Positions 13,917 to 30,344 of a DNA stretch of 64,000 nucleotides are shown here, piece after piece. The notes under the pieces are model-generated. The model was given only the letters and a program-made list of their open reading frames with translations, ran no database searches and was not told where the DNA came from. Source of the stretch: Vibrio lentus (lineage in GTDB: Bacteria; Pseudomonadota; Gammaproteobacteria; Enterobacterales; Vibrionaceae); assembly GCF_030409755.1 (NCBI RefSeq), contig NZ_JAUFQE010000002.1, positions 3,472,001 through 3,536,000 of the forward strand. The letters are read 5' to 3'. A program made the position numbers and the translations under genes. The first letter of the stretch is position 1; each line of letters starts with the position of its first letter.

Positions 13917-14076
13917 GTGTCTTCCCTGAACTATTGAACGATTTATGTACGTTCATATTGCCGCCTTTTTTATAAAAGAAAAGTAAGCTTAGTCACAGAG
14001 AAGCAATTGGAACTGTGTGCGGGGCGATTCGTTATTTGTAGGGAATACAGCGTGAGTTGTGCAGATCTAGAAAAGC

Positions 14077-14112
14077 AAAAAGCCAGAGCAGTGTGAACTG
14101 TTCTGGCTTTTC
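14077..14112 (-). terminator. Original terminator of the disrupted tRNA gene
   Basis: A hairpin pairs AAAAGCCAGAACAGT with ACTGCTCTGGCTTTTT (minus strand, one mismatch) immediately downstream of the tRNA 3' end. It survives although the tRNA is now split. Confidence 0.85.
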
Positions 14113-14117: not shown

Positions 14118-14172
14118 TGGTGGCCCCTCCCAGATTTGAACTGGGGACCGAACGATTATGAGTCGTGCGCTC
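14118..14172 (-). pseudogene. 3' half of a split tRNA-Ile2 (CAT) gene
   Basis: On the minus strand this reads anticodon loop CTCATAA, variable loop, T arm (TTCAAAT loop), acceptor AGGGGCC and encoded ACCA. The T arm and acceptor are complete, but the sequence breaks off just upstream of the anticodon stem, where the island begins. The missing 5' part (acceptor GGCCCCT and D arm) is at 28310-28336. Joined, the halves give a normal cloverleaf resembling E. coli ileX/ileY tRNA-Ile2, whose C34 is modified to lysidine so that it reads AUA. Annotation pipelines often call such genes tRNA-Met. Confidence 0.88.
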
Positions 14173-14298: not shown

Positions 14299-15699
14299 AT
14301 GAAATTCAGAGCGCGAAATTATCCCAACCCATTGCATCATGTCACTGTTAAGCAGCATGTCGTTTTAAAAAGCGGTAAGCGTGACCAGTTCATGATTCTC
14401 TATATAAAGCCGCTTGGCGCGGATGCTCCTATAGTCTTCCATGAGCTATTTAAGTATTTTGCGAGAAATGCATCAAATAGTCTCTCATGGCAGAGGCATG
14501 TAGCACGAGCTATTGGTCTGTTTTATGACTTTTGTTTAGTAAAGGCATCGGCATACAAGAATGATAATAGTATCGCTGATGCATTGAGAGGGTTCATTGA
14601 GTGCTCATTAACTGGTGATGAAGAGCTTGGTTGGACACCCTCCAGCCAAAAGACAGTCATGAGGAATTTTGCATACATCATAGATTTTTCTAAAGATCTC
14701 TCTGACCACGTCTCTGAGTCGCTTATCCCTGCAAAGGACTCAACAAATCTTAGGTACTTTTATCATGCCTATGCGATAAAAGATAATGTATCTCTCAGTC
14801 ATGTAACAAACGTGAAGAATGTTGCAGCAAGAGTTCAAGCTACTTCAAACGACCATATCTATAAGTTCAACGGCAACCCTAAGAGTAGAAATATTCATGT
14901 GTTTCCAGAGGATCTGATTGAGCCTTTGTTTAAGTACGGTTTCAAAAAACGTGATGGAACTGAAGATGTTGGTGCCAAGATGATTACCGCCATGTTGTTA
15001 TTTGGTGGTATGCGTGAAAGTGAACCGTTCCATGTTTGGTACAATGACTTCAAACTCGACACTTCGACAGGAAGAGTAAGGATAAACCTACACCACCCCT
15101 CAGAAGGTGCTACTGACGTTCAGCCTTATCCTAAGATGTTAAGAAAAGAGTATTTGATGCACCGTAAACTCCAACCAAGAAATGAGCGAGCGGTCTCTAA
15201 AAGCTACCACGCAGGGTGGAAAGACCTAGCTGTAAATAGTGACTATAAGACAGAAATCGTATTAATTCATACGGAAATAGAACAACATTTTTGTGACTGG
15301 TTTGCTGAGTATTTATATCTTAGAGAGGTCTGCATGGAAAACTATAAACAGAAGCATGGTCACGATCATCCATTCTTTTTTGTCAAAATGGGTGACAAAA
15401 GTGACCTTGGTGCCCCTCTATCTATACGTGCATACGTTAGAGCATTACAAAGAGCTGTAGGAAGGCTCGAAAAAATGGGCTATATGGCAGAGTATGGGTA
15501 TGAGGATGGTATTTCCCCACACCCTATGAGGCATTGGTTTGTAACAACGCTTGCAAACAATGGAGCTGGTAACAAAATCATTCAAATATTAGCCAATCAT
15601 CGAAATATCTTGTCTCAAGAAGTGTATAAAGGCGCAACTGCCAAAGATATAAATGCCGCTTTAAGTGAAATTTCAACAAACTACACAATAATTTTATAG
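14299..15699 (+). CDS. gmtY: Tyrosine recombinase, GmtY type
   Basis: This 466-residue site-specific recombinase is the first gene of the island, 126 bases inside its left end. The catalytic domain lies in the C-terminal half: first arginine in GGMRESEP (about residue 240), HxxR in SPHPMRHWF (about 413), the later histidine in ILANHRN and the nucleophilic tyrosine in SQEVYKG near residue 445. The N-terminal region is probably the core-binding domain. It is followed after 7 bases by gmtZ, and the trio arrangement fits the published Gamma-Mobile-Trio islands. The name rests on gene order, sizes and recognition from memory, not on a search. SE-type intA or Tn554 tnpA-like proteins are the nearest alternatives. 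Confidence 0.75.
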   Translation: MKFRARNYPNPLHHVTVKQHVVLKSGKRDQFMILYIKPLGADAPIVFHELFKYFARNASNSLSWQRHVARAIGLFYDFCLVKASAYKNDNSIADALRGFIECSLTGDEELGWTPSSQKTVMRNFAYIIDFSKDLSDHVSESLIPAKDSTNLRYFYHAYAIKDNVSLSHVTNVKNVAARVQATSNDHIYKFNGNPKSRNIHVFPEDLIEPLFKYGFKKRDGTEDVGAKMITAMLLFGGMRESEPFHVWYNDFKLDTSTGRVRINLHHPSEGATDVQPYPKMLRKEYLMHRKLQPRNERAVSKSYHAGWKDLAVNSDYKTEIVLIHTEIEQHFCDWFAEYLYLREVCMENYKQKHGHDHPFFFVKMGDKSDLGAPLSIRAYVRALQRAVGRLEKMGYMAEYGYEDGISPHPMRHWFVTTLANNGAGNKIIQILANHRNILSQEVYKGATAKDINAALSEISTNYTIIL

Positions 15700-17630
15700 A
15701 GTCTTTATGTTAGGTTTAAAAAGCACTGATGTTGAAAAGTTTTTAGAACGAGAAGGTGAAGTTGAGTACCTATCAAACTCTGCGATTATAGAGGTTTGTC
15801 TCGTTTGTTTGACTAATAAAAATGAATATGAACGTGGACTAAAACTTCTTAGCACTCTTCGTGATAGAGGCATATGTTTCTCCGAGTTTTACTACTTCGC
15901 TAAGCACCAATGGTCTACTGCCTATCTAACCAGTTTGAGTATACAGGCGAAAAAGCAAGAAAGAATCTCTTCGCTATATGAAGAGTTTGATAAAGCTGCT
16001 GAGGCAAACGGTTATGGAGTTAATTCATCACCAAGACAGAAAGGTAGGGTGTTTGCACTACTTTATGGATACTTCTACGAAAAGCATTCTTTGATGGAAG
16101 TGACCCTTGAAGACGTTAATAAGTTGAGATGTTTGGTTATAGATAGGCACGCTCTTTTTACTGGTGACATCAATACAATAGATCATAAGTACATCAAAAA
16201 AGAACTGTTTGGCATATTGGAATTTTTGATTGTTGGTTATAGAAACAACAACCAGAAGTTAGATTCAAAACTAGAAACAGATATAATACCTAATGGTTTA
16301 TCACGTCCAAGAGGGCTATCTCTTTCCCGTTCCAAACGAAAGTCTGAGGTAAGACTAGAGAACTATTCTTTTCTTATTAGCGAATACGAGAGATATAAGG
16401 ATACGCTAAAGCTAAAAAACCCCAAAGAGGTAGATGCTGCTCTAAGGGTGTTACTGGAATATATCTGTAACCGCATAGATATTATGGAGGTTAAATCAGT
16501 TGAAGACTTTCAGGATTTAATGAAAGTTGGAAGAGATGGAGAGTATCGATGGTTCAATTTTCTAAATGAAGGCGAAAAAAAAATAAGAAGTAAGGCTCTA
16601 GCTATCTTTGATTTTGCCAACTGGTTGATGATTGAACATGCTATCGACCAAGATGATGGATACGAAGCATTATTGTCTAGAGTAGAGTACGACAAGGTTA
16701 TTAGATTAGTAAAAAACGATGGCAATGGAGCCAAAGATGAAACACCGAAAGCACTTATTCCTTATCGAGTTCATCAGATAGCAACTGATATACTTTACGA
16801 TCCTTCATATGAATGGGCTAGGAGCCTAGACTATATGTATTTTCGGGATGAAGAAGGCGTCAATACTTTTAACCCAACAATTGTCAATTTACTAGCTTTA
16901 TTGTTTACGATTCCAATTCGAGGGATTCAAGCTCAATGTCTAGATAGCGGTGAAGGTGATCCTTACAAATATAATTTTGACGATGTTGTATGGGAAGAAA
17001 ATGACAGCAAATTAGCCTGTTACTGGAAGGCTAAGGGACACGTAAATGATGCTAGAGGTTTCTTGAACAGAGCGAAGAGCTTAGTTCGTGAAGCCAAAAA
17101 AAGTAAAGAGTTTGATGATAGTGGGTATCCTATCATTAGACGTGCTTACATGTATGTGAATACCAATAAGACAGCAGATAGAAATGTTGCCTTTAGTGAC
17201 AGTAGTGGGTATGTGATTCCGTGGCATCATGAGGATGTAATAAAAATTGTTGAGAGACAATTGAAATTTATTGAAGAACACCACCCAGTGGACAGCCCTA
17301 GTTGTTTGCGAGATCTTGAAAAAAAAGATTTGCGGCAAATCCTTGGCGCCCCTCCGACTAAGCTGGTTTTGAAGTTAATACCAGATAGATTTTACCTATT
17401 TAGGTGTAACTTGAATCCGGTTAAAAACACGCATAACTTTCCCCCTACGAAGAAATTACTAGTACGCACGTGGAATAATCTAATGATTGAGATTCAGCGA
17501 AGACTAGAGGATGAAGGGGCTGACTTCTCAGTTATATCAGCAGATAAGATAGAGAAGTTTAAGAAGAATATAGGGGGAGGAAACTCTTATATAAGTGATC
17601 TGATCTGCTCCAGTCAGACTGGACACTTAG

Positions 17631-18482
17631 CTAAGCGACATTTTGCTTTTCAAAGTTCATTGGGCTTAGATACCCAAGTGCACTGTGCCTTCTCGTTCGA
17701 TTATAATCAACTTCTATGTACTCGAAGATCGTTTGGCGCATCTGCTCTCTCGTCATGATCGGCTCATATTGGATTGCTTCAACTTTCATTGAGTGGAAGA
17801 AGCTCTCAACACATGCGTTGTCCCAACAGTTCCCTTTTCTACTCATACTTTGTTTTAAATTATAAGTACTTATGAGGTCTCGATAGTCTTTCGAACAGTA
17901 CTGACTACCTCGATCGCTATGAGTTATAACCTGCTCAGGAAACCCTCGACGGAATAAAGCCATTGATAAGGCATCACAGACCAGTGAGGCCGTCATTCTC
18001 GTATCCATAGACCAACCAATAACTTGCCTTGAATAAAGGTCAATAATGACAGCTAAGTACAGCCAGCCTTCGCTTGTGGCAACATAGGTGATGTCTCCTG
18101 CCCATTTTTGATTCGGAGCCGTTGCGTTAAAATCTTGAGCGAGCAAGTTCGGAGCAACGGGCATTTTATGCTTACTGTCTGTTGTACACTTAAACTTGCG
18201 TGCTGCTTTCGCTACTAAATCCTGACGTTTCATACTGGCGGCAATGGTCTTAACATTATGGTTATCACCGCTCTCTGCCAGCTCTTTCTGAATACGTCTT
18301 GAGCCATCTCGCTCTTTGCTAACGTCAAAAGCTTCTTTTACTTTGGTATCAAGCTTTTGGCGCTCTGTCTCACGTTGAATCGCCTTGTGGCGATTCTCAA
18401 CCCAATAATAAAACCCACTTCGAGAAACTCTGAACACCTTAGCCATACGGGAAATACTGAAACTCAGCAGGTGTTCGAGCAT
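17631..18482 (-). CDS. IS3-family transposase OrfB (DDE domain)
   Basis: This is the catalytic part of the IS3 transposase, 283 residues from its internal ATG. The HTH_21 helper region comes first (MAKVFRVSRSGFYYW), then the integrase core with the DDE residues in WAGDITYV, HSDRGSQY and the glutamate of NACVESFFHS. It is normally made as an OrfAB fusion: a -1 shift on AAAAAAG (18536-18530) in orfA leads without a stop into this frame through REKSKVNCYEFMLEHLL. The frame ends 30 bases before the left IS boundary. Confidence 0.95.
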   Translation of the reverse strand: MLEHLLSFSISRMAKVFRVSRSGFYYWVENRHKAIQRETERQKLDTKVKEAFDVSKERDGSRRIQKELAESGDNHNVKTIAASMKRQDLVAKAARKFKCTTDSKHKMPVAPNLLAQDFNATAPNQKWAGDITYVATSEGWLYLAVIIDLYSRQVIGWSMDTRMTASLVCDALSMALFRRGFPEQVITHSDRGSQYCSKDYRDLISTYNLKQSMSRKGNCWDNACVESFFHSMKVEAIQYEPIMTREQMRQTIFEYIEVDYNRTRRHSALGYLSPMNFEKQNVA

Positions 18483-18496
18483 AAATTCATAGCAAT

Positions 18497-18781
18497 TTAC
18501 TTTAGATTTTTCGCGAAGTAGGTGGCGGCCTTTTTTACGATTTCTAGCTCTTCTGCTTGCTCTGCCAACTGCCTCTTTAGCTTAGCGACTTCAACGGCCA
18601 ATTCTTGTTCTCGTTGGCTAATACTCGAATTCTTCTTTGTGGCTTTTCGCCAACCGTAGATCTGAGATTCATGTAACGAGAGCTGTCTTGCGGCTGCAGC
18701 GACTCCCACTTTCTCTGCCAGCTTCAGGGTTTCTGCTTTAAATTCAGGAGAATGGATAATACGTTTCTTCTTAATTGTCAT
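18497..18781 (-). CDS. IS3-family transposase OrfA
   Basis: This 94-residue DNA-binding part of the IS3 transposase has a helix-turn-helix in the first 50 residues (HSPEFKAETLKLAEKVGVAA, HESQIYGWRK) and a leucine-zipper-like coiled coil after it (EVAKLKRQLAEQAEELEIVKK). It ends shortly after the A6G slippery site that feeds the -1 frame of orfB. Its start lies 62 bases inside the right IS end. Confidence 0.93.
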   Translation of the reverse strand: MTIKKKRIIHSPEFKAETLKLAEKVGVAAAARQLSLHESQIYGWRKATKKNSSISQREQELAVEVAKLKRQLAEQAEELEIVKKAATYFAKNLK

Positions 18782-19870
18782 GGTTCACCTCATTAGTTAT
18801 TGTACTCACTTAACTCAGTGTCCAAAACTGCTGGTGCGGATCAATCTTACTATCCATTGCACTAGGGTTACGGGTATAACTCGACTAGAAGAAGCGGGCG
18901 TGCCGATAAATATTATTTCAAAGTTTATTGCGGGTCATGCAAATATACGAACAACATATCACTATGTAAAACATGATGCGCATTATGTTGAAACTGAAAT
19001 TTCTGAAGCGCAAGCGAAGGTTTCTATGAAAATGCAGTTGTCACTATCGTCTGATTTAAAGAAAAAGCCAATAAGTAAGGCACGAGCGATGGCGTATATT
19101 TCTGATGCCTATGACTCATCTTGGGAGATAATTAGAGACCGAGCATGGAATTCAAACACACTTGGCATCTGTCCTAACGCCGCCACTCTTTGTGATGAGG
19201 CCCATCAAGATAGTGATTTTAGATTTAAAGGTGTAGGGAAGTGTGCCAACTGTAAATATTTAGTAAGTGGGAAACCATACCTTATTACAATTTGGTCACA
19301 CATAAATACATTGCTTTATAAAGCTAAGAAAATTGGTGATACCTACAATCAGTTACAAGAAGAGCAAAAAGAGTTAGTTAAGCTTAGAAGGCAGGAGTAT
19401 AAGACTAACGGTAAGACAGAGCTATTCTATTCGTATGATAATCAGGTAAAAAAGGTTGAAAATCATATGGAGTCCAATGAAGGTGATGAGAACCTTATCT
19501 TAGCCGAAGTTTACTACACCAATCTTTTGTTTGAGAAAGTTCGTGAAGTAACTAATACAGAGGATGATTTTGTTGGAGGCTTAGGGTTTGAAGAGTGTTC
19601 GGACTTTGAACATTTGAATTCTATCGTTGAGTCAGAAAGGTTTTTGCCGCACTTCACTAAAGATAAAGATTTGAAGTTTAAGCGAGATACCTTTGTTGAC
19701 ATGGCTTTAGTTGCATTGGGTGAGCAGCCCCTCTTTTTAAAACCGCTTTCTGATGACGAAAGACAAGCTGCAATATCCTCTACTGCAAAGGCAATCGAGC
19801 ATGACTTGCAAAAACTAGAGGGTAAGTATTTAGGTGCTGTTATGAAAATTCAAAACTTGGGAGATATTAC

Positions 19871-20581
19871 ATGTCTACCATAATAGAAGCTGTATTAGAG
19901 AGATTATGCTCAGAGTCGAGTAGTAGTGTTGAAACAAAGCTAAGAGCAATCCACAAGATAATTCAAGGCTTCAAACGAAACAACGTAGAGCTTACGGCCC
20001 CAAACCTTACGGATGCATTAATGGCTTTGGGAATCAAAATGAGCAAAAGCTCAATTTACAACAAGAAATCGAGAGGAAAAGATAACCCTTATCGAGTTCT
20101 TGTTGATGCGTGGCAGGATGATATTAATGATGCCAAGGTCTCTAGGGCTTCAAAATCTTCCAAGATAGATATTACCGTCATGAGCAACTCAGACTATGAA
20201 TCTATAACTAGTGATTTGGTCAAATTCAAGATACAGAACATGTATAACGAACTTAAGTCTGCAAGACACCAAGTTAACCTTCTGAAAGAGATTCAAGGTC
20301 TGCCTATCATTCAAGAGGGCGGCGATGACAAATTACTGTTTCACAATAGTGAACAGTCGATATCTTCCACAAAGCCTCCTGAAGTTATTGATGTTCCAAA
20401 GGATTCTGACATACACATTGAGGTGATTGAAGACTTCTTGGAAAACAGCACCAAGGTGATGTTTGATGAAGACGGATGCTTGGTAGCATCTAAAGCTATT
20501 AGAAAGAGTGATCTCCTCAGTGATATAGGTCTACAACAAGCGTTATCCATCGCAATCCAAATTATGAAAAATCAATCTTAG
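19871..20581 (+). CDS. gmtX: Recombination accessory protein, GmtX type
   Basis: This 236-residue protein closes the recombination trio. Its start overlaps the last 13 bases of gmtZ, so it is translationally coupled. The first 100 residues look like a helical DNA-binding region with small polar and basic residues (AIHKIIQGFKRNN, KMSKSSIYNKKSRGKDNPYR). The middle is helical (KFKIQNMYNELKSARHQVNL) and the end is acidic then helical. No catalytic motif is visible. Position and size match GmtX of Gamma-Mobile-Trio islands and, more distantly, the small third protein of Tn554-like or SE elements. The exact role is inferred. Confidence 0.68.
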   Translation: MSTIIEAVLERLCSESSSSVETKLRAIHKIIQGFKRNNVELTAPNLTDALMALGIKMSKSSIYNKKSRGKDNPYRVLVDAWQDDINDAKVSRASKSSKIDITVMSNSDYESITSDLVKFKIQNMYNELKSARHQVNLLKEIQGLPIIQEGGDDKLLFHNSEQSISSTKPPEVIDVPKDSDIHIEVIEDFLENSTKVMFDEDGCLVASKAIRKSDLLSDIGLQQALSIAIQIMKNQS

Positions 20582-20660
20582 TGTAAGAAAAGGCATACTT
20601 AATTTACACAATTGCAGCACCTCTAGAGTCTCCGTCCCGTGGGTTCATGGGGCGGATACG

Positions 20661-21230: not shown

Positions 21231-21401
21231 ATGAAGAGATTAAATATGGGACAAGAGTTTACATATGAACAGATGCAGACGCTGCTGCATTTAGTAAAAA
21301 CGGAAATGAATAGTATTTGCGGTGACCTCGGCTATGCAGAGTTATCAAAAATACGAACTATCTTAGAGCAGAAGCTAGATGACTTTCCACCTCCTGATTA
21401 G
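21231..21401 (+). CDS. Small hypothetical protein (56 aa)
   Basis: This frame from ATG to TAG encodes 56 residues predicted to be mainly one helical hairpin (YEQMQTLLHLVKTEMNSICG, YAELSKIRTILEQKLDD) with a short proline-rich end. Small helical proteins of this kind are common in Vibrio islands. A weak AAG/GATTAAG site precedes the start; a second ATG six codons later, with ATGGGACAAG, is a possible alternative. I do not recognise a family. It lies alone between the tandem repeats and the antitoxin gene. Confidence 0.45.
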   Translation: MKRLNMGQEFTYEQMQTLLHLVKTEMNSICGDLGYAELSKIRTILEQKLDDFPPPD

Positions 21402-21447
21402 ATTACGGTAAACAGTAAAGACTGGGACTATTGAACGTATCCGCCTA

Positions 21448-21466
21448 TGTATGAGTCAGTATACTT
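21448..21466 (+). repeat. 19-bp direct repeat, left copy
   Basis: TGTATGAGTCAGTATACTT matches TGTATGAGTCAGTACACTT at 27960-27978 with one difference. The two copies bracket nearly all of the variable cargo. Confidence 0.6.
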
Positions 21467-21849
21467 CACCTCTGATAGTTCATGTTCAGAAAATGCCTTA
21501 TTTTTGATATACCGACAAAACCCTCGCCCACCATAACTTCCATCGGAGTACGTCCATCGAGCTTTGTATTGCGCATATTTACCCAGCCATATTTGATCTC
21601 TGGATTATACGGGTAGAGCATACTGAGATGTTTGTGGATCGCCAATAGGTTGATAACTCGCTCGTGTGAATCCAGTCCCCTAGGGATACCAGTAGCTCCC
21701 ACCTCCATTGCTCGTAACCTGTTGCTGTTCGTTAAACCTATACCGAGCAGCGAACACTGAGTAGTACGTGAGATATTCCAATAGTCAAACAGCCTCATCA
21801 CGGCTCTTGCTAACGTTACAGACGTATTTTTGCTCAGCCTCTTAGACAT
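21466..21849 (-). CDS. Xre/MbcA/ParS-type antitoxin, orphan
   Basis: This 127-residue protein resembles antitoxins of the DUF2384 (MbcA/ParS/Xre toxin-binding) family. An N-terminal helical part is followed by the domain pattern ERVINLLAIHKHLSMLYP, GWVNMRNTKLDGRTPMEVMV and a final G-rich helix. In most systems of this family the partner is a RES-domain toxin encoded next to it. None is present here: the gene downstream is on the other strand and small, and the upstream neighbour is a decayed PIN/NYN-like frame. It may therefore be a survivor of a broken toxin-antitoxin pair or a solitary regulator. Family confidence is moderate. Confidence 0.7.
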   Translation of the reverse strand: MSKRLSKNTSVTLARAVMRLFDYWNISRTTQCSLLGIGLTNSNRLRAMEVGATGIPRGLDSHERVINLLAIHKHLSMLYPYNPEIKYGWVNMRNTKLDGRTPMEVMVGEGFVGISKIRHFLNMNYQR

Positions 21850-21941
21850 ACTGATACCTCTTGAGTTGCAAATGATATAGTTTGTTCACCAGTTAAGCGG
21901 GTCGAACTCATAGTGTGCATTAGTTTATTGCTCATAAGCGC

Positions 21942-22280
21942 TTACGCCACATTGGGGTAGCATTGGCAATTGATGTAGTGTTGGTTCACAAACGCCTGAA
22001 CCGCTCTAGCTAGTGCTTTATCGGCAGTAACCATTATTACATCAGAAATATCCCTGTGCTGAATTTCCTGAGTTAATCTAGCTATCAATCGGAAATCAGA
22101 GGCATTTTCGTAGGTATCAACAGTTTCCACCAACTGGCCTACCATTTACTCTCGGTAACCTGCATGGATTGTTGGCTACGGCGAGTACAATAACATCCGC
22201 CCTAGAAAACAACGTGGCATCTCTAGGCATATTTTGTTGTTATCACAGTCAATTACAACCGCCAAAGTTCGGTCAATCAC
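21942..22280 (-). pseudogene. Decayed PIN/NYN-like nuclease gene
   Basis: Three short stretches look like parts of one PIN/NYN-fold nuclease. TLAVVIDCDNNK (first acidic strand) lies near a GTG at 22280. ADVIVLAVANN follows in a frame shifted by one. The C-terminal part then returns to the first frame (TYENASDFRLIARLTQ and ISDVIMVTADKALARAV, where the conserved acidic residues of the fold sit). In the first frame TAG (22178-22176) and TAA interrupt the gene before ATG 22145. The reading needs one +1 and one compensating shift, so it is a pseudogene if the interpretation is right. It lies 92 bases upstream of the antitoxin and 10 bases after the small ORF at 22291-22443. Confidence 0.45.
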
Positions 22281-22290
22281 CTTTGACGTC

Positions 22291-22443
22291 CTACCTATTC
22301 AGAGTTAGCAGAACACTGAGCTGGTCGTCATCAGGGTCGATGTCACCGTTAACAACACTCCTAGCTATAACCCACATAATCTGGTCACTAGAAACTCCCA
22401 AAGCGTCGGCTTTGGCAGCCAACATCATGTCAAAATCCACCAT
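22291..22443 (-). CDS. Small hypothetical protein (50 aa)
   Basis: This 50-residue frame starts at ATG 22443 behind an AGGA site spaced seven bases; a longer frame beginning at 22491 lacks one. The sequence is helical then acidic (LAAKADALGVSSDQIMWVIA, NGDIDPDDDQLSVLL). It seems to be the first gene of a minus-strand group with the decayed nuclease and the antitoxin. I do not recognise it. Confidence 0.42.
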   Translation of the reverse strand: MVDFDMMLAAKADALGVSSDQIMWVIARSVVNGDIDPDDDQLSVLLTLNR

Positions 22444-22927
22444 GCAAATTCCTATAAATAACTGTGTTTTTATACAGATTGATAGTGGCATTTTGGTGCG
22501 TGTTCAATGATCTCAATTCGTTACAGGCACAACTATCGACTAATAACCCTGACTCCATCAGGCATTGGTGAACTACCGTCATCTTCCTCTCAGATCATGC
22601 AGATATTCAGGTTGCATTGAGGAAAGAGCTAAATAAGAAATGTCCAGAACCTTGCTGAAGGAGACTTAACACGAAATGCCCCAAACCTTCTCAGAACCTG
22701 CGAAAGGAACACCTGACCAGTACACCAATAGACAAAGTTAATCTAATCCGTACTTTGATCTCTTATACAGAACTTTTCCGTAATTCACCCCTACAACTAC
22801 ATGCCGATTCACATAACAGGTTGATACCAGTTGAGTTTCACAATTAATGGCAGCAACATAGACGGAATACAAAGACGGAAAAAGTACGTCAATAAAACGT
22901 TATGCGCTAAGGCAATTCGAGGTAATA
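22444..22927. other. Gene-free stretch with a degenerate tandem repeat
   Basis: These 484 bases hold no gene that I can support. Around 22627-22700 a diverged repeat is visible: AAGAAATGTCCAGAACCTTG and CGAAATGCCCCAAACCTTCT, about 40 bases apart. Multiple short end repeats containing AAATGTCCA are typical of some insertion-sequence termini, so this may be the leftover end of a lost element (weak inference). Confidence 0.3.
22899..22907 (+). repeat. Cassette-like border upstream of the DUF4062 gene
   Basis: GTTATGCGC, 20 bases before the start codon, is the exact reverse complement of GCGCATAAC at 23922-23930, which overlaps the stop codon. Integron gene cassettes in Vibrio are bounded in this way. 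Confidence 0.4.
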
Positions 22928-23929
22928 ATGGATAAGAGATATCAAGTATTTGTAAGCTCTACATATATAGACTTAAAAGATGAGCGACAAAGTGTACTTC
23001 AAACATTAATGGAAATGGATTGTATTCCTGCCGGAATGGAGTTATTTCCCGCTGCTGACGAAGAGCAATGGGAGTTTATCAAAAAAGTCATCGATGACTG
23101 CGACTATTATCTGTTAATAATTGGTGGGCGGTACGGTTCAACGGCCGATGATGGTTTAAGTTACACGGAGAAAGAGTTTGATTATGCTGTAAGCAAAGGA
23201 ATCAAAGTAATTGCTCTGTTACATGAGTCACCAGACTCATTACCTCGTTCAAAAAGCGAAATGTCCGAAGAATCAGCGGAAAAACTAGAACTCTTTCGAG
23301 AGAAAGTAAGTGAAGGAAGGTTAGTTCGCTATTGGAAGGAGTCAGCTCAGCTTCCCGGTGAAGTTGCTCTAAGTCTAAATAAGACAATTAAAATGTTTCC
23401 CGCTGTAGGTTGGGTAAGAGCTGATTCTTCTGCGTCACCAGAATTGCTTGCTGAGATTAACGTATTGCGTAAACGCAATGAAGACTTAGCACTTCAACTT
23501 GAAGAACAAAAGCCACAACAATCCTTGCTGCCTGATGACGAACTTGCTGATTGGGAAAGTGAAATAGAATTAGCTGGCTCTTATCAAATTTACGCTCGTT
23601 CTATGCATGATCGAACACAGAACCATACGTGGTCTAAATCAGTGACATGGAGGCAACTATTCTCAACTCTATCTCCACTTTTAGCTGACAATGCATTTGA
23701 TAGCAGTGTAAATAGTTTTGTTGCTGAGCAATTTAGTGGTGCTGATAGGAACAATGTTCACATATCATCTTTGGAGATTGACAGCCAAATCCTTTATACA
23801 ATTCGAATTCAGTTCCTAGCTCTAGGTCTGATTTCCATTAATAACGATAACCCTCAAGCACAGTGGAGTCTCACTGATTATGGTTTACAAACCATGATTA
23901 AGGAAAGGGTTGTCGGCAAAAGCGCATAA
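22928..23929 (+). CDS. DUF4062 domain protein, candidate anti-phage gene
   Basis: This 333-residue protein begins with the hallmark of DUF4062, [19 protein letters not shown], followed by [20 protein letters not shown] and [12 protein letters not shown]. The domain (about residues 1-120) has a TIR-like fold in its family and is often found in signalling and defence genes. A coiled-coil stretch follows at about 180-200 ([18 protein letters not shown]). The C-terminal 130 residues are helical with a winged-helix-like end ([32 protein letters not shown]) and unrecognised. A GAGGT site precedes the start. It is a single-gene unit inside a mobile island with integron-cassette-like borders. A defence role is inference. 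Confidence 0.72.
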
Positions 23930-23930
23930 C
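23922..23930 (+). repeat. Cassette-like border at the end of the DUF4062 gene
   Basis: GCGCATAAC followed by AAGCGTATAAG resembles the start of Vibrio attC sites (TAACAAGCGTTTAAG-like). No complete attC hairpin can be drawn, and no integron integrase is present. Confidence 0.4.
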
Positions 23931-23938
23931 AAGCGTAT

Positions 23939-24031
23939 AAGGTTTCAAGATACTTATTCTAATCTGTATTGAGCGCGTTAGACCTTAAGCTGTGCGTTAG
24001 ACCTTAAGCTCTAACGCGTTTCTGCCCCAAG
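23939..24031 (+). repeat. Dispersed repeat, left copy
   Basis: AAGGTTTCAAGATACTTATT then CTAAT (23939-23963) recurs at 27817-27841 with one difference, followed in both places by a degenerate stretch ending near TAACGCGTTT. The left copy also holds two direct GCGTTAGACCTTAAGCT units and an inverted TCTAACGC, which can fold as a stem. The two copies bracket the decayed integrase and the racemase operon. Confidence 0.55.
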
Positions 24032-24105
24032 ACGTGTTTAGAACGCATGAAACCATCATGAGATTTATTTAGGCAACAGCCTGTTGGACAAACTCTCAGA
24101 TTCAA

Positions 24106-24560
24106 TTGTGCAAGGGGTTCTTGCCCTATTGCGAAACAACTTGTTTCGTCAAAAAACCTTTTCGGATTGAGGAAATTTTGCGGAGCAGAACCAGATTAGA
24201 AATTGAAAATAATTTGACGCAACTTGCCTTGTTCAACTTAGCCATTGATAGCAAACTTAGAGCGAGTGATTTGCTTTCCCTAAGGGCTTGCGAGGTCTCT
24301 TCGCAAAATAGGATATTTAGCCATGTTAAGAATATTCAGCAAAAAATAGACATTGAAGTCCAATTTGAGAAAAAGACAAGAACTCGACAGAGTCTAATGA
24401 AATGGGTTTTGATGGCTTCCTACATGCCAGCAATTTTCTTTTCAAAGCCAAAGATTAGCTATTCGTACTAAATGAGGGTATGGGCTTCTTGGATTGGACC
24501 CTAACTTGTATGGCACTCACTCATGAGGTGAACAAAGGTAGATAACACAATCCGCTACTT
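24106..24560 (+). pseudogene. Remnant of a small tyrosine recombinase
   Basis: The readable part (121 residues to 24471) matches the N-terminal half of a small integrase family: KPFRIEEILRSRTRLEIENN, then LALFNLAIDSKLRASDLLSL with the first catalytic arginine, and VQFEKKTRTRQSL. After this the frame loses similarity and stops. A continuation is recognisable downstream in another frame as LYGTHS followed by a stop where the HxxR segment should be, and as RYFES further on. It is a decayed gene and cannot be active. The start is uncertain. Confidence 0.6.
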
Positions 24561-24625
24561 TGAAAGTTGTTACCCACTCACCGCTACACTTGATTATTTT
24601 CAATACGTTAAGTGCAAATACTACT

Positions 24626-24664
24626 AATCTGTCCAAGGTTTAGATGACCTTGAACAAATTAGAT
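24626..24664 (-). terminator. Hairpin downstream of the racemase operon
   Basis: CTAATCTGTCCAAGGT and ACCTTGAACAAATTAG pair over 14 of 16 positions, 16 bases beyond the last gene of the minus-strand operon. The T tract is poor, so terminator function is uncertain. Confidence 0.4.
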
Positions 24665-24679
24665 ATACACGAGCTTAAA

Positions 24680-24910
24680 TTAAACGTTGGAACGCACGTT
24701 TTTCTTCTTTGATTTATAGGCTTTCATTGAAATTTTTAAAGCAAGCTGTTTTTGTTTAATTGAAATGAGTTGTCTAGTTACGACCTTATCGTGTAACTCT
24801 GTGATAAAGTTTTTTTCCCAAGGCGTAAGGCGGTCAAACCTCAATAAAATAGTGTCATTGAGTACATTGAACAACTCGTATTGGCTTTTATCCATTCGAC
24901 TGCTAAGCAT
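24680..24910 (-). CDS. Small basic protein of unknown function (76 aa)
   Basis: This 76-residue protein begins at the base next to the lipoprotein stop (TGA then ATG), which marks it as the last gene of the operon. It is helical and ends very basic (LKISMKAYKSKKKNVRS). The stretch RLTPWEKNFITELHDKV followed by LISIKQKQLALKI recalls short modules seen in some replication- or phage-associated proteins, but I cannot name it. No membrane segment or signal peptide is visible. Confidence 0.5.
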   Translation of the reverse strand: MLSSRMDKSQYELFNVLNDTILLRFDRLTPWEKNFITELHDKVVTRQLISIKQKQLALKISMKAYKSKKKNVRSNV

Positions 24911-25276
24911 TCAATTAGAGCACTTAGCTAGAGAAATGACGTTAAGGCTTTCTACTTTCTCATTTTTTCCTAAGGTAATGATTCGATAAGAGATCCCACT
25001 CTCTAATAGTGGTCTTATTTCGATGTTGTCACAAAAACTAACGGCGACTTTTTCTACTAAGCGGTCCATATTCAAAGTTTTATTTTTTACGAAAACAAGA
25101 GTGACACTATCGCCCTCTGACTGTGCATTTACGAGTGTGATTGAGCCTAACTCTTGTGGAAGTTGGCTTGAAATAACTGTCGCTCTATAATCGGCAAGTC
25201 CATTAGATTTTATTGGGCTTATCTGACAACCGTTAAGCATGACACTGACGAAGAGAATTACAGTTGTTCGTAGCAT
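24911..25276 (-). CDS. Predicted lipoprotein of unknown function
   Basis: This 121-residue protein starts at ATG 25276 behind GAAGGAG. It begins with a lipoprotein signal, LRTTVILFVSVMLNGCQ, where cysteine follows an LNG lipobox, so it should be lipid-anchored and exposed to the periplasm. The mature part has the pattern of a small mixed fold (YRATVISSQLPQELGSITLV, SGISYRIITLGKNEKVESLN) with cysteines near the end. A longer frame upstream is only overlap with the racemase gene, whose last 44 bases it shares. I do not recognise a family. Confidence 0.65.
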   Translation of the reverse strand: MLRTTVILFVSVMLNGCQISPIKSNGLADYRATVISSQLPQELGSITLVNAQSEGDSVTLVFVKNKTLNMDRLVEKVAVSFCDNIEIRPLLESGISYRIITLGKNEKVESLNVISLAKCSN

Positions 25277-26369
25277 TATGCGCTCCTTCTTCCTTTCTTC
25301 TCCCTTTAGGTGCCTTAAAATATTTATGGATATAACGTGAAGATATAGAAGATAAGAGCGCACTGTAATCTAAACTGAATGTGACTTTTTCCCCTACAAA
25401 TAGTGGTTTCTGTGAGGATTCAAGGACAAGATGATCACTGGTTGAAGACATGATCTTAATCCCATTCGGAGCCTTAAGCCCGCTGACACAAACATCTTGG
25501 CGGCCTAATGCTAGAATAGCTTGTGAGACCTCCCCTCTATCTTGAAGGTTTTCTTTTTCACCAAAAGCATTTAACCCCCGACTCCCCCAAGGCAAAGTCG
25601 GTTTAGTCTTGGATTCAATCACTTCAGCGGTCAAAGAAACCGCATCCGTATGTAAGCCTTTGATATTTTCGTGCTCTAAAGGCTCACAGCCTAAAAAAAT
25701 TGCTTCTCCTATACGAAGGTTATTGACTCGAGTTAAGCCTGTTCTCTGAAGAGCCCAGTTAACTGAAGCAGAATTACCCCCTGAAATAATTTCTAGACTG
25801 ACCCCAAATGTAGCTTCAATTCCATCGGCAAGCTCAGAAAGAATACTCATATTTTGATCATCTGGAGCGACACCATACCGACAGGCTAAATTCGTACCAA
25901 TTCCTTTTATCGTGATGTTTGGTAAAGAAATAATCTCTCGGATAAAATCAATCACGCGATTTGGCATCACACCTTCTCTGAGATCGCCAAGCTCAACCAT
26001 AATAATGATACCGTGACAGCAATTTTGTTGTTCCGCTGCATGTGAAAGCCTCTGAATCACTTCAACTTCAGAGTTTAAACTCATATCACTGTATTTTATT
26101 ACGCTCGCCACTTGACTGAGCATGGGTGTACGTATCAGCATTTTAGGGATAGCAATGCCAGATTCAGTCATCTTTTGAAGATTTTCGATTCTTGAATCGG
26201 CTAACATTGTTGCGCCAGCATCAATAAGAACTTGTGCGATGATAGGGTGGCCGAGGAAGGCTTTTGTTACAGGCGTAACGGATATATTTTTCAGTGAGAG
26301 CTGAGAAATCAGGAACTGAGCGTTATGATGAACTTTCCCACAATCGATGTCTAACCTAGGGTAGTTCAC
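25233..26369 (-). CDS. PLP-dependent amino-acid racemase, ornithine racemase (Orr/YhfX) type
   Basis: This 378-residue fold-type III PLP enzyme is related to alanine racemase. The PLP lysine lies in VTKAFLGHP near residue 35, followed by ADSRIENLQKM, SLNSEVEVI, MVELGDLREG, GIGTNLACRYG, ISGGNSASV, NNLRIGEAIFLG and LALGRQDV, all hallmarks of the alanine/ornithine racemase branch rather than of Alr or DadX. It should interconvert L and D forms of an amino acid, possibly ornithine; the substrate is not readable. It overlaps the DUF1611 gene by four bases (ATGA) and the lipoprotein gene by 44, a tightly coupled operon. Confidence 0.85.
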   Translation of the reverse strand: MNYPRLDIDCGKVHHNAQFLISQLSLKNISVTPVTKAFLGHPIIAQVLIDAGATMLADSRIENLQKMTESGIAIPKMLIRTPMLSQVASVIKYSDMSLNSEVEVIQRLSHAAEQQNCCHGIIIMVELGDLREGVMPNRVIDFIREIISLPNITIKGIGTNLACRYGVAPDDQNMSILSELADGIEATFGVSLEIISGGNSASVNWALQRTGLTRVNNLRIGEAIFLGCEPLEHENIKGLHTDAVSLTAEVIESKTKPTLPWGSRGLNAFGEKENLQDRGEVSQAILALGRQDVCVSGLKAPNGIKIMSSTSDHLVLESSQKPLFVGEKVTFSLDYSALLSSISSRYIHKYFKAPKGRRKEEGAHNATNNCNSLRQCHA

Positions 26370-27571
26370 CCTTTTTCGGCCAGTTTACTTGCTATTATAG
26401 GAAAGGCTGACGTTACGATGTGCAGTAGATGTTCAACAGGCTGTGACAAGACATCAGTAACCGGTAAACCAAATTCGGTAGTGTAAGTGTCTATCGCACA
26501 ACGTGTTTCATCCAACGACATATCTTCATGATTCAGTGTTAGTCCAATAACATTGGTATTAGAAAACGTTTCGATAAGATTGATTTCTGAGGCAATCGAA
26601 GGCATTGGGCAATCAGGAAAATCACTACGATATAAACGTTTAGGGGCATGTTGCAGTATCACACCCGTTGGACAACTGCCACGTAAGATAAAAGCGCTGG
26701 TTGAAAACGCAGGGTGACTCAAGGCTCCTTGCCCTTCAATAATAATCAGATCCGGATTTTCTTTTTCATAGGCCTGTACAATGACAGATTCCAACTCACC
26801 GGCACAAAATTGTGAAGGAACAGCATCGAGTGCAACGCAGTATTGTGCGCCCTGCATAATGCCTGTTTGACCAGTGGCAATCAGAACGACGTTAAGGCCT
26901 TTTTTAGTCAGTTCATTCGCCAATATTGTTGCTGTTGTTCGTTTTCCTAGCGCGCAATCCGTCCCCATTACAGCAATTCTCGGGCATTTAACGTTGTGTA
27001 TTTTCCCGCTAAACGTTTTCAGTTCGCCTTTATTTTTGGGTTTGCGAGTATCGAATATTCGAACGTTATTCTTTAAGCTGGCTTCTAAAAATAGAGGATC
27101 ATCGGTTAGGAATTCATGTAAGCCATTTACGATGTTCATTCCTAGTGACATGGCATTTAAAATGATGCTTTTATCTAAGTCAGATAAAAAGCCACTTGAT
27201 GGCGCAATGCCAAAAATGAAGTAATCAGGAATGCTTTCTGCGTGAATGATAGCTTCTTCAGCATTAGCAAGGATCGGTATTCCATTGGCTTTGTTATCAA
27301 GAACTTCACCAGCATCTAAGCCAGCAGACTCACTATCAATAACCGATAGAATACGATAGCTTAACGAATGTCTCACTAACCCATTAGCGGTTTTACCATC
27401 AATTTTACCGAAATTACCTTCGCAATATATAATCGCAGAAGGGATGACAGATTTTACTTTTTGAGCAAGTGGTAACCAAGGTGCGAAATGGGGTACGTCG
27501 TTGTTGATTTCTACATTTTCAATTCTAGTGAGTTTGAAGATGTTTCTTAACTTTTGAGTTGAAATGGACAT
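26366..27571 (-). CDS. DUF1611 family P-loop protein (DgcN-like)
   Basis: This 401-residue protein of the DUF1611 family has an N-terminal Rossmann-like domain (about 30-180, with YFIFGIAPSSGFL) and a C-terminal P-loop domain whose nucleotide motif is GTDCALGKRTTA near residue 205, followed by IEGQGALSHP. A DUF1611 protein named DgcN acts in D-glutamate catabolism with an N-acyl-amino-acid epimerase partner (established for some marine bacteria). Here the partner is a PLP racemase, so an acylation or ligation step on a D-amino acid is plausible but unproved. It is the first gene of the four-gene operon. A stem AAGCCT/AGGCTT lies directly before its start and no good ribosome site is visible. 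Confidence 0.78.
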   Translation of the reverse strand: MSISTQKLRNIFKLTRIENVEINNDVPHFAPWLPLAQKVKSVIPSAIIYCEGNFGKIDGKTANGLVRHSLSYRILSVIDSESAGLDAGEVLDNKANGIPILANAEEAIIHAESIPDYFIFGIAPSSGFLSDLDKSIILNAMSLGMNIVNGLHEFLTDDPLFLEASLKNNVRIFDTRKPKNKGELKTFSGKIHNVKCPRIAVMGTDCALGKRTTATILANELTKKGLNVVLIATGQTGIMQGAQYCVALDAVPSQFCAGELESVIVQAYEKENPDLIIIEGQGALSHPAFSTSAFILRGSCPTGVILQHAPKRLYRSDFPDCPMPSIASEINLIETFSNTNVIGLTLNHEDMSLDETRCAIDTYTTEFGLPVTDVLSQPVEHLLHIVTSAFPIIASKLAEKG

Positions 27572-27816
27572 AATTAAAGCCTGCGGTGAGGCTTAGGAGG
27601 GCAACTAAGGAGTGCCGAGATGCGAGTTCGGAAAAGAAAAGAAGTCCCCACTAAGCGGTAGGGATAACAACCAAGGTAACACACTCACCAGACTTTTGTT
27701 GGTTATTATTAATACGCTTTCTAAGTCTATCACTTTCAGGCTTCACCCATACTAACGTGACTGATTAGAGATCTAAGACTCATTGTTCAACGTCGCCGTA
27801 TCAACCTCTCAGCTTT

Positions 27817-27901
27817 AAGGTTTCAAGATACTTTTTCTAATATCAGTTAAGTGAATTAGAGTTTTGAGTTTAACGCGTTTTTGTCCAGAAGCGTTTTTGG
27901 T
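27817..27901 (+). repeat. Dispersed repeat, right copy
   Basis: AAGGTTTCAAGATACTTTTT then CTAAT (27817-27841), with degenerate similarity continuing through TTTAACGCGTTTTTG. It is the partner of the copy at 23939-24031. Confidence 0.55.
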
Positions 27902-27959
27902 GGCATATAAGACAGTCTGTACGACTAGGTCACGCTTCCTCACCATAAGTGTCAGATTG

Positions 27960-27978
27960 TGTATGAGTCAGTACACTT
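27960..27978 (+). repeat. 19-bp direct repeat, right copy
   Basis: TGTATGAGTCAGTACACTT is the partner of 21448-21466, 6.5 kb apart, one mismatch. Confidence 0.6.
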
Positions 27979-28048
27979 AATGATACTCAGCCAGCAGGTG
28001 AAGGGGCGTTCGAGTGCCTTTAGCTAGAATGTTGCCATGTAGAAACCA

Positions 28049-28078
28049 AAAAAAAACCGCTCATTGAGCGATTTTTTA
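28049..28078 (-). terminator. Terminator after the island tRNA
   Basis: CGCTC-AAT-GAGCG with A and T runs on both sides, 6 bases beyond the 3' end of the tRNA on the minus strand. Confidence 0.75.
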
Positions 28079-28083
28079 GAAAT

Positions 28084-28161
28084 TGGTGCGCCCACACGGA
28101 CTTGAACCGTGGACCTGCCGATTATGAGTCGGATGCTCTAACCAAACTGAGCTATGGGCAC
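28084..28161 (-). tRNA. Island-borne tRNA with CAT anticodon, probably tRNA-Ile2
   Basis: The minus strand folds as a complete tRNA with encoded CCA: acceptor GTGCCCA/TGGGCGC, D stem GCTC/GAGC, anticodon loop CTCATAA, T arm CACGG-TTCAAGT-CCGTG, discriminator A. The acceptor has C4-G69 and C5-G68, known determinants for the lysidine synthetase TilS, and lacks the G2-C71/C3-G70 pairs of elongator tRNA-Met, which favours Ile2 (AUA decoding). The top anticodon-stem pair (27-43) is T/C, a mismatch. Its sequence differs clearly from the disrupted host gene, so it was brought in from outside. It is followed by a terminator. Confidence 0.85.
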
Positions 28162-28284
28162 TTTGTAGAAATGCATTCTGCACTTAATAGCCGTTGTTGT
28201 CAATAACTCAAGTTGTAAGTCCAACTTGCATTGTTGTTAACTAACAACACGGCAACCCCTTGTATTAACTCACTCACTCTCTGC
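28162..28284. other. Right-end spacer of the island
   Basis: This is a short AT-rich stretch with several GTTGTAA/TTACAAC and GTTGTT/AACAAC words, some in inverted pairs (GTTGTTAACTAACAAC at about 28232-28247). They resemble the terminal motifs and may be accessory recombinase sites. It contains no gene. Confidence 0.4.
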
Positions 28285-28309
28285 GTTGTAACGAAAGTGG
28301 GGGTTATAC
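28285..28309 (-). repeat. Right terminal sequence of the island
   Basis: Read inward on the minus strand: GTATAACCCCC, seven bases, TTACAAC. Inverted relative to the left end at 14173-14199. Confidence 0.6.
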
Positions 28310-28336
28310 CTGCTCTAACCACTGAGCTAAGGGGCC
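28310..28336 (-). pseudogene. 5' half of the split tRNA-Ile2 gene
   Basis: The minus strand reads GGCCCCTTAGCTCAGTGG and TTAGAGCAG: acceptor 5' strand and full D arm of an ileX-like tRNA, ending at the island junction. The remainder is at 14118-14172. The promoter at 28348-28376 is intact, so transcription still starts here and enters the island. Confidence 0.88.
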
Positions 28337-28347
28337 GTAGGGCATAG

Positions 28348-28376
28348 ATTATAGGGGAACCATTCAGTGGTGTCTA
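28348..28376 (-). promoter_or_regulatory. Promoter of the split tRNA gene
   Basis: On the minus strand TAGACA (28376-28371) and TATAAT (28353-28348) are 17 bases apart, with the tRNA 5' end 12 bases downstream. Its transcript would pass the half tRNA and about 150 bases of island end and then read through the intact island tRNA to the terminator at 28049-28078. Confidence 0.7.
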
Positions 28377-28499: not shown

Positions 28500-30344
28500 T
28501 TACTCGTCTAGAAAGCTGCGCAGAGTTTCTGAGCGGCTTGGGTGACGAAGTTTACGCAGTGCTTTTGCTTCGATCTGACGGATACGCTCACGAGTAACGT
28601 CGAACTGTTTACCAACCTCTTCAAGAGTGTGGTCAGTGTTCATGTCGATACCGAAACGCATACGCAGTACTTTCGCTTCACGCGGTGTTAGGCCTGCAAG
28701 AACGTCTTTAGTTGCGCCGCGTAGGCTTGTTGCCGTTGCAGAGTCTAAAGGCAGTTCTAGAGTTGTATCCTCGATGAAATCACCTAGGTGCGAATCTTCG
28801 TCGTCACCGATTGGTGTCTCCATTGAGATTGGCTCTTTAGCAATTTTCAGTACTTTACGGATCTTGTCTTCAGGCATTTGCATGCGCTCAGCCAGTTCTT
28901 CCGGAAGTGGTTCACGACCCATCTCTTGTAGCATTTGACGAGAGATGCGGTTTAGTTTGTTGATCGTTTCGATCATGTGAACCGGAATACGGATAGTACG
29001 AGCTTGGTCGGCAATCGAACGAGTGATTGCTTGACGGATCCACCAAGTAGCGTAAGTAGAGAATTTGTAACCACGACGGTATTCAAATTTATCTACAGCT
29101 TTCATCAGACCAATGTTACCTTCTTGGATTAGATCCAGGAATTGTAGACCACGGTTTGTGTACTTCTTAGCAATCGAGATTACTAGACGTAAGTTCGCTT
29201 CAACCATCTCTTTCTTCGCACGACGAGCTTTCGCTTCACCGATAGACATACGACGGCTGATATCTTTAATGCTTTGAACAGTAAGAGACGTCTCTTTCTC
29301 GATCATATCCAGTTTTTGGATTGAGCGACGAATATCGTTCTCGTTACGTTTGATCTTTTCTGCGTATGGCTTGTCTGAAGCTAATACTTCGTCCAACCAT
29401 GCTTCGCTAGATTCATTACCCGTAAATAGAGCAATGAAAGATTTCTTCGGCATTTTGCCGTACTCAACCGTTTGACGCATGATTAGGCGTTCTTGAGTGC
29501 GTACGCGATCCATTGACGTACGCAGTTCGTTTACTAGATAATCAAACTGTTTAGGCGTTAGACGGAACTCTTTGAATACGTCTTGCATCATTGTCGTTGC
29601 AAGTGTTGCTTTCGGGCTTTCGTGGCCGTATTCATTGATCGCTAGTTGACGGTTTTGGTAGCTAGTACGAAGTGCTGTGAACTTCTCAAGAGCAAGCTCA
29701 GGATCAATACCTGTATCTTCCTCTTCTTCTTCCTCGTCGTCTTCTGCTTCTTCTTTGTCTTCGTCTTCTAGATCTGTTTTAGCAAGTTCTGAACCGATGT
29801 GAGTCGCCGTTGGCGCAGCTGTGCCATCGTCGTCTGGGTCAACAAAGCCATTGATTAGGTCTGTTAAGCGAATCTCTTCAGCTAGTACGCGGTCAAACTG
29901 TTCCAAGATGTATGGAATTGTTCCTGGGTATTCAGCAACAGATAGTTGAACGGTATTGATACCATCTTCAATGCGCTTCGCAATGTCGATCTCGCCTTCA
30001 CGAGTCAGTAGCTCAACCGTACCCATTTCACGCATGTACATGCGAACTGGGTCAGTCGTACGGCCAATCTCGCTTTCTACGCTTGAAAGCGCAGCAGCAG
30101 CAGCTTCAGCTGCATCTTCATCTATATTGGCATCGTCATCATTAAGAGCTAGATCATCAGCGTCAGGTGCAGTTTCTACTACCTTGATACCCATGTCGTT
30201 GATCATTTGAATGATGTCTTCTACCTGTTCAGAATCCACGATTTCTGCAGGTAGGTGGTCGTTTACTTCGGCGTAGGTCAGATAGCCTTGTTCCTTGCCT
30301 TTAATAACAAGTAATTTAAGCTGTGACTGCGGATTTTGATCCAT
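28500..30344 (-). CDS. rpoD: RNA polymerase primary sigma factor (sigma-70)
   Basis: This 614-residue housekeeping sigma factor recognises -10 and -35 promoter elements. Region 1.1 is at the N-terminus ([20 protein letters not shown]), region 1.2 includes [21 protein letters not shown], a long acidic non-conserved insert follows ([12 protein letters not shown]), then region 2 ([32 protein letters not shown]), region 3 and region 4 ([32 protein letters not shown]). It is the last gene of the macromolecular synthesis operon, downstream of dnaG, and borders the tRNA locus where the island is inserted. Confidence 0.98.

Follow-up and report, generated by a model that had tools for sequence, protein, structure and literature searches.

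The tRNA(CAT) gene beside rpoD, which we take to be ileX, is split at tRNA positions 22 to 27 by a 14,137-bp recombinase-trio island (14173-28309) in the window, the whole 64,000-nucleotide stretch of Vibrio lentus DNA analyzed here. Comparison with related genomes makes it very probable that such islands split a single-copy host tRNA gene midway and bring along, at their promoter-side end, a complete spare gene with the same anticodon that takes its place. A spare with the matching anticodon was found in all nine assessable insertions, and seven of the nine spares contain a group I intron predicted to be self-splicing. The genome to which the window belongs (G000) has 5.9 Mb; relatives are labeled G plus a number, with one genome per species.

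The split tRNA gene and the limits of the island

Downstream of rpoD (28500-30344, minus strand) lie a promoter and then the first 27 nt of the split gene (28310..28336, minus strand). The 55-nt 3' half is located at the other end of the island (14118..14172, minus strand) and is followed by a terminator-like hairpin recognized by eye (14075..14110, minus strand). The preliminary description had read these two stretches as halves of one CAT tRNA gene, and both were confirmed: joining of the flanks by script restores a 76-nt cloverleaf tRNA identical to the intact rpoD-adjacent gene of two relatives (G009 and G319). The island limits of 14173 and 28309 were set from the six-base junctions and from the joining of the flanks.

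The two halves share one six-base position, which reads GAGCAG on the promoter side (attR, 28310-28315, within the 5' half) and GAGCGC on the other (attL, 14167-14172, within the 3' half). The attL bases are those of the intact gene of relatives; the attR bases are those of the other ileX type and not native, as would be expected if six bases had been carried along from a previous location. The island ends, GTATATGCCC and GTATAACCCC, are imperfect inverted repeats. The 5' tRNA half continues straight into island DNA, and no attP identity block restoring the target gene was found there.

The recombinase trio and its cargo

The island encodes a GmtY-like tyrosine recombinase of 466 amino acids (14299..15699, plus strand; PF00589; NF040693, E 3.7e-72, 244 bits against a cut-off of 340), a GmtZ-like integrase gene in two pieces, and a GmtX-like protein of 236 amino acids (19871..20581, plus strand; NF040692, 44.1 bits, above the cut-off of 40). 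The first gmtZ piece (15707..17758, plus strand; PF13009) has an open reading frame that continues past the break; it reaches 108.8 bits against NF047926 and the second piece (18780..19883, plus strand) 119.5 bits, each against a cut-off of 600 for a gene that is here interrupted. Between them lies an insertion sequence (17631..18781, minus strand) with two transposase-like open reading frames recognized by eye. With gmtZ interrupted, the island in its present form can probably no longer move, though the tRNA has been kept. The gene order gmtY-gmtZ-gmtX is that of the gamma-mobile-trio (GMT) islands, reportedly described by Mahata et al. in 2024, and NCBIfam matches were obtained to all three proteins, those of GmtY and GmtZ below the cut-offs.

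The cargo comprises a weak Xre/MbcA antitoxin-like gene (21466..21849, minus strand; PF09722, E 1.5e-4, below cut-off), a DUF4062 protein (22928..23929, plus strand; PF13271), a type II secretion pilotin-like protein (24911..25363, minus strand; PF16549), an ornithine-racemase-like protein (25233..26369, minus strand; NF040742, E 8.7e-113, below cut-off), and a DUF1611/DgcN-like protein (26366..27571, minus strand; PF07755; NF041892 below cut-off). An open reading frame at 24106-24471 has weak phage-integrase similarity (PF00589, E 0.015) and is perhaps a relic. Numbers of the codons ATA, AGA, and AGG are 10, 11, and 6 in GmtY, 9, 5, and 1 in GmtX, 1, 0, and 0 in rpoD, and 8, 5, and 1 in dnaG; these codons, read by the two tRNAs that are taken over, are thus frequent in the recombinase genes and also in dnaG.

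Order-wide, GmtY at E <= 1e-90 was found only in G000 and G262 of 394 genomes. Close GmtY proteins are named from Alteromonas and Paraglaciecola. A pattern search of 30 genomes gave no match, and searches for GmtY in phages, for P0003 in plasmids (E 1e-30), and with the A1 profile in viral contigs led nowhere. P0016 matched 117 plasmid records, all under 60% identity, and a search of genome contigs yielded one Bacteroidota locus (33% over 48 residues).

A complete tRNA-Ile2 gene inside the island

The spare tRNA, of the tRNA-Ile2 type with anticodon CAT, is 78 nt long (28084..28161, minus strand; ARAGORN; Rfam tRNA, 64.1 bits against a gathering score of 29) and sits 148 bp inside the promoter-side end of the island. 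A terminator follows it (28051..28077, minus strand; terminator search), so that the complete and clearly different CAT tRNA noted earlier about 150 bases inside the right end, with its terminator, is borne out. ARAGORN labels the spare as Met because of its CAT anticodon. Its identity is 73% to the elongator tRNA-Met and 69% to the initiator tRNA of the same genome, 76% to the broken host gene, and 77 to 86% to the CAT tRNAs of 29 relatives (rpoD-side or best-match tRNAs), which were the best matches of a similarity search and hence picked for likeness. The body of the spare is therefore nearer to ileX than to either Met tRNA, and an assignment to elongator Met was rejected on these values.

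The cloverleaf of the spare holds C4-G69, C5-G68, U12-A23, C29-G41, and A73, which are determinants for TilS or IleRS; the first two pairs had already been pointed out in the preliminary description. A tilS gene was found in G000. The spare differs from the native gene in both acceptor and T stems, and the pair closing its anticodon stem is a T27-C43 mismatch, against C27-T43 in the native gene. By eye, about 2 of the 15 bases to the right of the core differ from native in the spares of G000 and G262, neither of which has an intron.

tRNA inventory of the genome

From 455 first-look candidates in G000, 150 were scored and gave 125 Rfam tRNA matches. ARAGORN typed 125 tRNAs in the stretches holding these matches; 13 have a CAT anticodon (4 elongator Met, 8 initiator, and the island spare), and a TAT anticodon occurs in none of the 125 uninterrupted tRNAs. 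A pattern scan of the genome returned 15 matches, namely, 12 Met-type genes, the split half, the spare, and one chance match. The spare is thus the only tRNA-Ile2 gene, and no tRNA-Ile(TAT) gene was found, among the uninterrupted genes that the inventory and the scan detect; intron-containing genes can escape both. With the intron-bearing Ile2 spare of the second island type (below) as the query, two weak matches were obtained in G000 (best E, 1.2e-6). Neither tRNA-Arg(TCT) nor tRNA-Arg(CCT) is among the 125 typed uninterrupted tRNAs; the latter may be truly absent or also interrupted.

When up to 3 mismatches were allowed, the 41-base core of the spare was matched in 2 of the 329 family genomes (G000 and G262), in each of them within such an island. 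The observation that would have spoken against substitution, the same tRNA next to rpoD in island-free strains, was therefore not made among these genomes. The island tRNA matched 742 plasmid records at 60 to 90% identity and none more closely, and a search for the spare core in viral contigs gave nothing useful.

A diverged island at the same site

G262 was reached by a GmtY search of the 329 family genomes in which the tRNA was not used. Its island (L052, 5096-19181; 14,086 bp) lies beside rpoD and cuts the same gene in the same place. The GmtY protein is 54% identical to that of the window, homologues of GmtZ and GmtX are present, and the cargo is different. The joined flanks equal the ileX of other genomes (e.g., L030 and L033).

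As anticipated for related islands at this site, the G262 island carries the same tRNA in the same place. The two spares are identical at 75 of 78 positions (96%); of the three differences, two face each other in a single T-stem pair, which by eye changes from A-T to T-A. Between island end and spare, the leader matches at only 79 of 153 positions (52%; Fisher p 1.7e-13 against the spare). Conservation of the spare far above that of its leader indicates that the tRNA is under strong constraint. The attR bases of G262, GAACGG, differ from the native GAGCAG and may be either an import from an earlier site or the product of decay. A second, altered and inverted ileX 3' fragment was observed about 6 kb from this island (L054, 19272-19320).

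Islands of the same kind in tRNA-Arg(TCT)

GmtY matches at E <= 1e-40 were obtained in 5 of the 329 genomes, G000 included. The remaining three (G009, G017, and G319; GmtY at 30 to 33% by tblastn) have the 3' half of tRNA-Arg(TCT) at attL, where the cut falls on the corresponding six positions (GAGCAC). In G009 and G017 the 5' half is present at the other end, and a complete tRNA-Arg(TCT) follows 177 and 256 bp behind its start, in both with its anticodon loop interrupted by a group I intron. The contig of G319 stops before the promoter-side end, and no 5' half was found on it. A tRNA gene is thus split by all five islands of the GmtY search (ileX in two, tRNA-Arg(TCT) in three), and a spare with the same anticodon is present in all four whose promoter-side end is assembled; with the window excluded, the counts are 4 of 4 and 3 of 3. 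These counts cover this clade, and more distant GMT islands lie outside them.

A second island type and a predicted case

The four genomes with the weakest ileX in the similarity search (G017, G047, G116, and G046) were followed up. An uninterrupted ileX-like pattern match is present in G116 and G046. In the two weakest, G017 and G047, another recombinase-trio island interrupts the T arm of ileX (promoter-side core, CAGTTC), and a tRNA-Ile2 spare with a group I intron lies 181 to 182 bp behind the captured start (93.9 and 90 bits); the pattern scan found no uninterrupted tRNA-Ile2 in either genome. The trio proteins of this second type have 480, 1,032, and 222 amino acids in G302 (see below) and 465, 1,041, and 213 in G047. 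Of these, the first belongs to the tyrosine recombinases (PF00589) and weakly resembles GmtY (29 to 37 bits against the cut-off of 340), the large protein has weak GmtZ similarity in one of the two scanned (21 bits against 600), and nothing convincing matched the small protein. Two further observations concern G017. An isolated anticodon arm plus T arm with the loop CTCATAA, which ARAGORN does not call a tRNA, is found at C1:832382 (L100), and a retron-type reverse transcriptase lies by the broken half in the ileX island (L101, 16294-17271; NF038233, E 3.7e-41, below cut-off).

With the intron-bearing spare as the query, the 329 genomes gave two further strong matches, in G302 and G324 (98.9 and 98.6 bits). 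These two are not counted for the rule because the spare itself was the query. The contig of G324 stops just past the spare, so that only the promoter-side end, and no recombinase, is seen. In the same search, a second ileX 3' half was observed 4 to 11 kb off in other genomes (e.g., G065:C30, G007:C1, and G316:C1), which suggests ordinary 3'-end-restoring islands at the same gene.

The tRNA-Arg(TCT) missing from the inventory of G000 led us to predict an island-split gene, which was found afterwards when 400 kb of the genome were inspected where synteny with G017 and G009 placed the gene. A 30,872-bp insert (C2, about 2087450-2118380; L185 and L186) cuts the T arm of the folD-linked tRNA-Arg(TCT) (core AGGTTC), and its intron-bearing spare (RF00028, 59.5 bits) lies 192 bp downstream of the captured start. 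The joined flanks yield an intact tRNA-Arg(TCT); this empty-site join for tRNA-Arg(TCT) was taken from the G000 site alone. Open reading frames of 481, 1,115, and 229 amino acids lie by the spare, the first two 29% and 22 to 23% identical to the corresponding Y and Z proteins of the second type and the third assigned to the trio by position only. The only tRNA-Ile2 and the only tRNA-Arg(TCT) genes found in G000 are thus island borne.

All searches together yielded ten insertions. Islands of the window's kind occupy ileX in two genomes (G000 and G262) and tRNA-Arg(TCT) in three (G009, G017, and G319); those of the second type occupy ileX in four (G017, G047, G302, and G324) and tRNA-Arg(TCT) in one (G000). 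The seven predicted introns all exceed the RF00028 gathering score of 50 (93.9, 90, 98.9, 98.6, 72.7, 76.6, and 59.5 bits).

An intron-bearing tRNA-Arg(TCT) was also observed in G213 (C1, near 1877830; L118 and L151; RF00028, 69.3 bits), between tig-clpP-clpX and folD (gene names by eye) and behind a promoter resembling the argU promoter of other genomes. No match to the trio was found in the fetched 60 kb, and this tRNA is perhaps a spare left after loss of an island. In L152 of G213, ARAGORN reports an intron-containing tRNA-Ile(gat).

Promoters of the spares

The promoter of the split gene, TAGACA-17-TATAAT (28348..28376, minus strand; sigma-70, 11 of 12 consensus bases), is intact and points into the island toward the spare, as first described, and no terminator-like site was found on the same strand between the two in the window. 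In all nine assessable insertions the spare lies at the promoter-bearing end, 163 to 256 bp behind the start of the captured gene and in the same orientation. A promoter-like site, TTGACA-17-CAGAAT, is located 13 nt upstream of the spare in G000 (28175..28203, minus strand) and 17 nt upstream in G262, with the hexamers and their spacing kept and the spacer sequence changed. Its score was reached by 4 of 1,000 shuffles in G000 and 9 of 1,000 in G262 (14 and 9 of 3,000 in another run). Such sites were scored for eight of the nine spares, all but the argU spare of G000. The argU spare of G017 has a marginal site, TTGAAA-17-TACTAT (61 of 1,000 shuffles), and the five others are at chance (371 for G009, 207 for the ileX spare of G017, 840 for G047, 605 for G302, and 509 for G324, each per 1,000).

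The claim that the island substitutes for the broken tRNA gene therefore stands as far as the spare is concerned, which is the only uninterrupted tRNA-Ile2 found in its genome and recurs in G262. Promoter capture, the other half of that claim, has partial support: it agrees with the position and direction of all nine spares, but the site upstream of the spares in G000 and G262 may make it unnecessary there. The captured host promoter and the spare's own site may both serve the spare, and conservation of the hexamers may also reflect recombinase binding to ACAAC repeats near the island ends.

Alternative explanations

The most serious alternative, which we consider possible but less likely than not, is that the spare is expressed wholly from a promoter of the island and that the captured one plays no part. 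The hexamers kept in G000 and G262 despite the change in the spacer speak for it, and the weaker site of the G017 argU spare agrees with it. Against this, five of the eight scored spares have no site above chance, all nine sit at the end that bears the promoter and run the same way as the captured gene, and the conserved hexamers may have the recombinase-binding role just mentioned. That the extra tRNA is instead defense or codon-supply cargo (e.g., a variant that an anticodon nuclease fails to cut, or one that helps the genes of the island by additional decoding of AUA), with the host break tolerated thanks to the spare, appears improbable. The differences between spare and native gene in the acceptor and T stems would suit such a role, as would the 10 ATA and 11 AGA codons of GmtY against 1 and 0 in rpoD, but dnaG also has 8 ATA codons, and the anticodon of the spare is that of the broken gene, Ile or Arg, in nine of nine cases at a fixed place, whereas the cargo varies.

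It is still less credible that the tRNA halves act in trans, or that the cell can do without the host gene and merely carries the island tRNA as a passenger. Both halves remain readable in G000, but the junction bases GAACGG of the 5' half in G262 would break the D stem (possibly as imported bases rather than through decay), and on this ground trans-acting halves were judged unlikely; strong conservation of the spare relative to its leader and the lack of another tRNA-Ile2 gene among those found also argue against a passenger. An assembly artifact or a chance tRNA-like sequence can be practically discounted, given the same arrangement in the separate genomes G262, G009, G017, G047, and G302, empty sites that can be regenerated, and a 78-nt tRNA far above the Rfam gathering score; nothing was observed in favor of either.

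Under replacement of the host gene by the island-borne spare, the reading that we prefer, the recombinases would cut within the six-base core, and the spare would be transcribed from the captured host promoter, its own promoter, or both. The transcript would then be modified by TilS and read AUA. Insertion would thus be survivable and would leave the cell dependent on the island for an essential tRNA, a dependence that would discourage loss of the island.

Relation to known elements

Carriage of a target-gene homologue is known from SE-6283, which inserts in bcp and carries a bcp homologue (PMC9345347). As described for SE-6283 and its relatives, elements of this family share with the islands studied here imperfect terminal inverted repeats, a six-base footprint/fingerprint, and two unequal tyrosine recombinases (PMC9345347, PMC10214605). 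They differ in targeting a protein gene and in having four core genes, intA-tfp-intB-srap, in place of three in the order Y-Z-X, and the word tRNA is absent from the main texts of both reports (PMC9345347, PMC10214605). The repeats and the footprint thus agree with SE membership, but a four-gene core in which tfp separates intA from intB was not found, and in both G000 and G262 the GmtZ-like gene directly follows the GmtY-like gene. Both SEs and Tn554 are described as taking six bases of their former location along with them (PMC10214605). Tn554 and Tn552-II have a three-gene tnpABC set and import donor att bases at one end, and Tn552-II carries a target-gene-like gene with a suggested rescue function; these elements are staphylococcal and have a protein target (PMC12486829). 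GInt islands likewise have a site-specific recombinase operon and six-base staggered cuts, but four genes, with protein genes and intergenic sites as the targets described, and tRNA is absent from the main text of that report (PMC5385486).

Ordinary tRNA-targeting islands and prophages also use a tRNA gene as attB and keep the target function. According to PMC10111431 and PMC8371274, they rebuild one hybrid gene through an attP segment, whereas the islands studied here leave the host gene broken and supply a complete second gene. According to PMC8371274, which cites Williams 2002, bacterial integrases use three regions of tRNA genes, namely, the anticodon stem-loop, the T stem-loop, and the 3' end. 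The second island type, with its cut in the T arm, falls within these regions, and the cut at positions 22 to 27 falls outside. Bacterial group I introns in tRNA genes are listed for cyanobacteria and for alpha- and betaproteobacteria in PMC4033280. A similar arrangement is described for a Caldiarchaeum tRNA-Thr locus, where the 5' fragment of a tRNA and a recombinase gene accompany a complete tRNA that contains an intron, with integration proposed as the cause; that case is a single locus with an archaeal intron type, in contrast to the recurrent arrangement with bacterial group I introns reported here (PMC3293823). Escape of interrupted tRNA genes from integration is an idea ascribed there to Randau and Soll 2008 (PMC3293823).

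Whole-gene replacement by an element is known for protein genes, and its tRNA version, as recognized here from gene arrangements, may be new: no tRNA case was among the literature matches listed, a literature that does not extend to the main GMT paper.

Implications

At tRNA genes, tyrosine-recombinase elements are expected to restore the target through an identity block. An element that brings a whole spare along could use any place in an essential tRNA gene as its target. One practical consequence is that an island-borne, intron-interrupted copy of an essential tRNA can be overlooked in annotation and the tRNA listed as absent, as G000 seemed to lack tRNA-Arg(UCU).

We also offer, tentatively and as something short of probable, the wider proposal that trio islands take over the genes of the rare-codon tRNA-Ile2 and tRNA-Arg(UCU) as a form of addiction without a toxin, with introns shielding the spare. 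If this is true, the broken host copy leaves the island as the only source of that tRNA, and an intron in the anticodon loop keeps the spliced RNA correct while destroying the DNA target of the recombinases. This would offer one reason why tRNA genes of bacteria acquire group I introns, and it would extend the idea of Randau and Soll to bacteria. The arrangement as such links mobile elements to essential decoding capacity and to the way in which group I introns spread among the tRNA genes of bacteria, and it makes the proposal that introns shield tRNA genes against integration directly testable.
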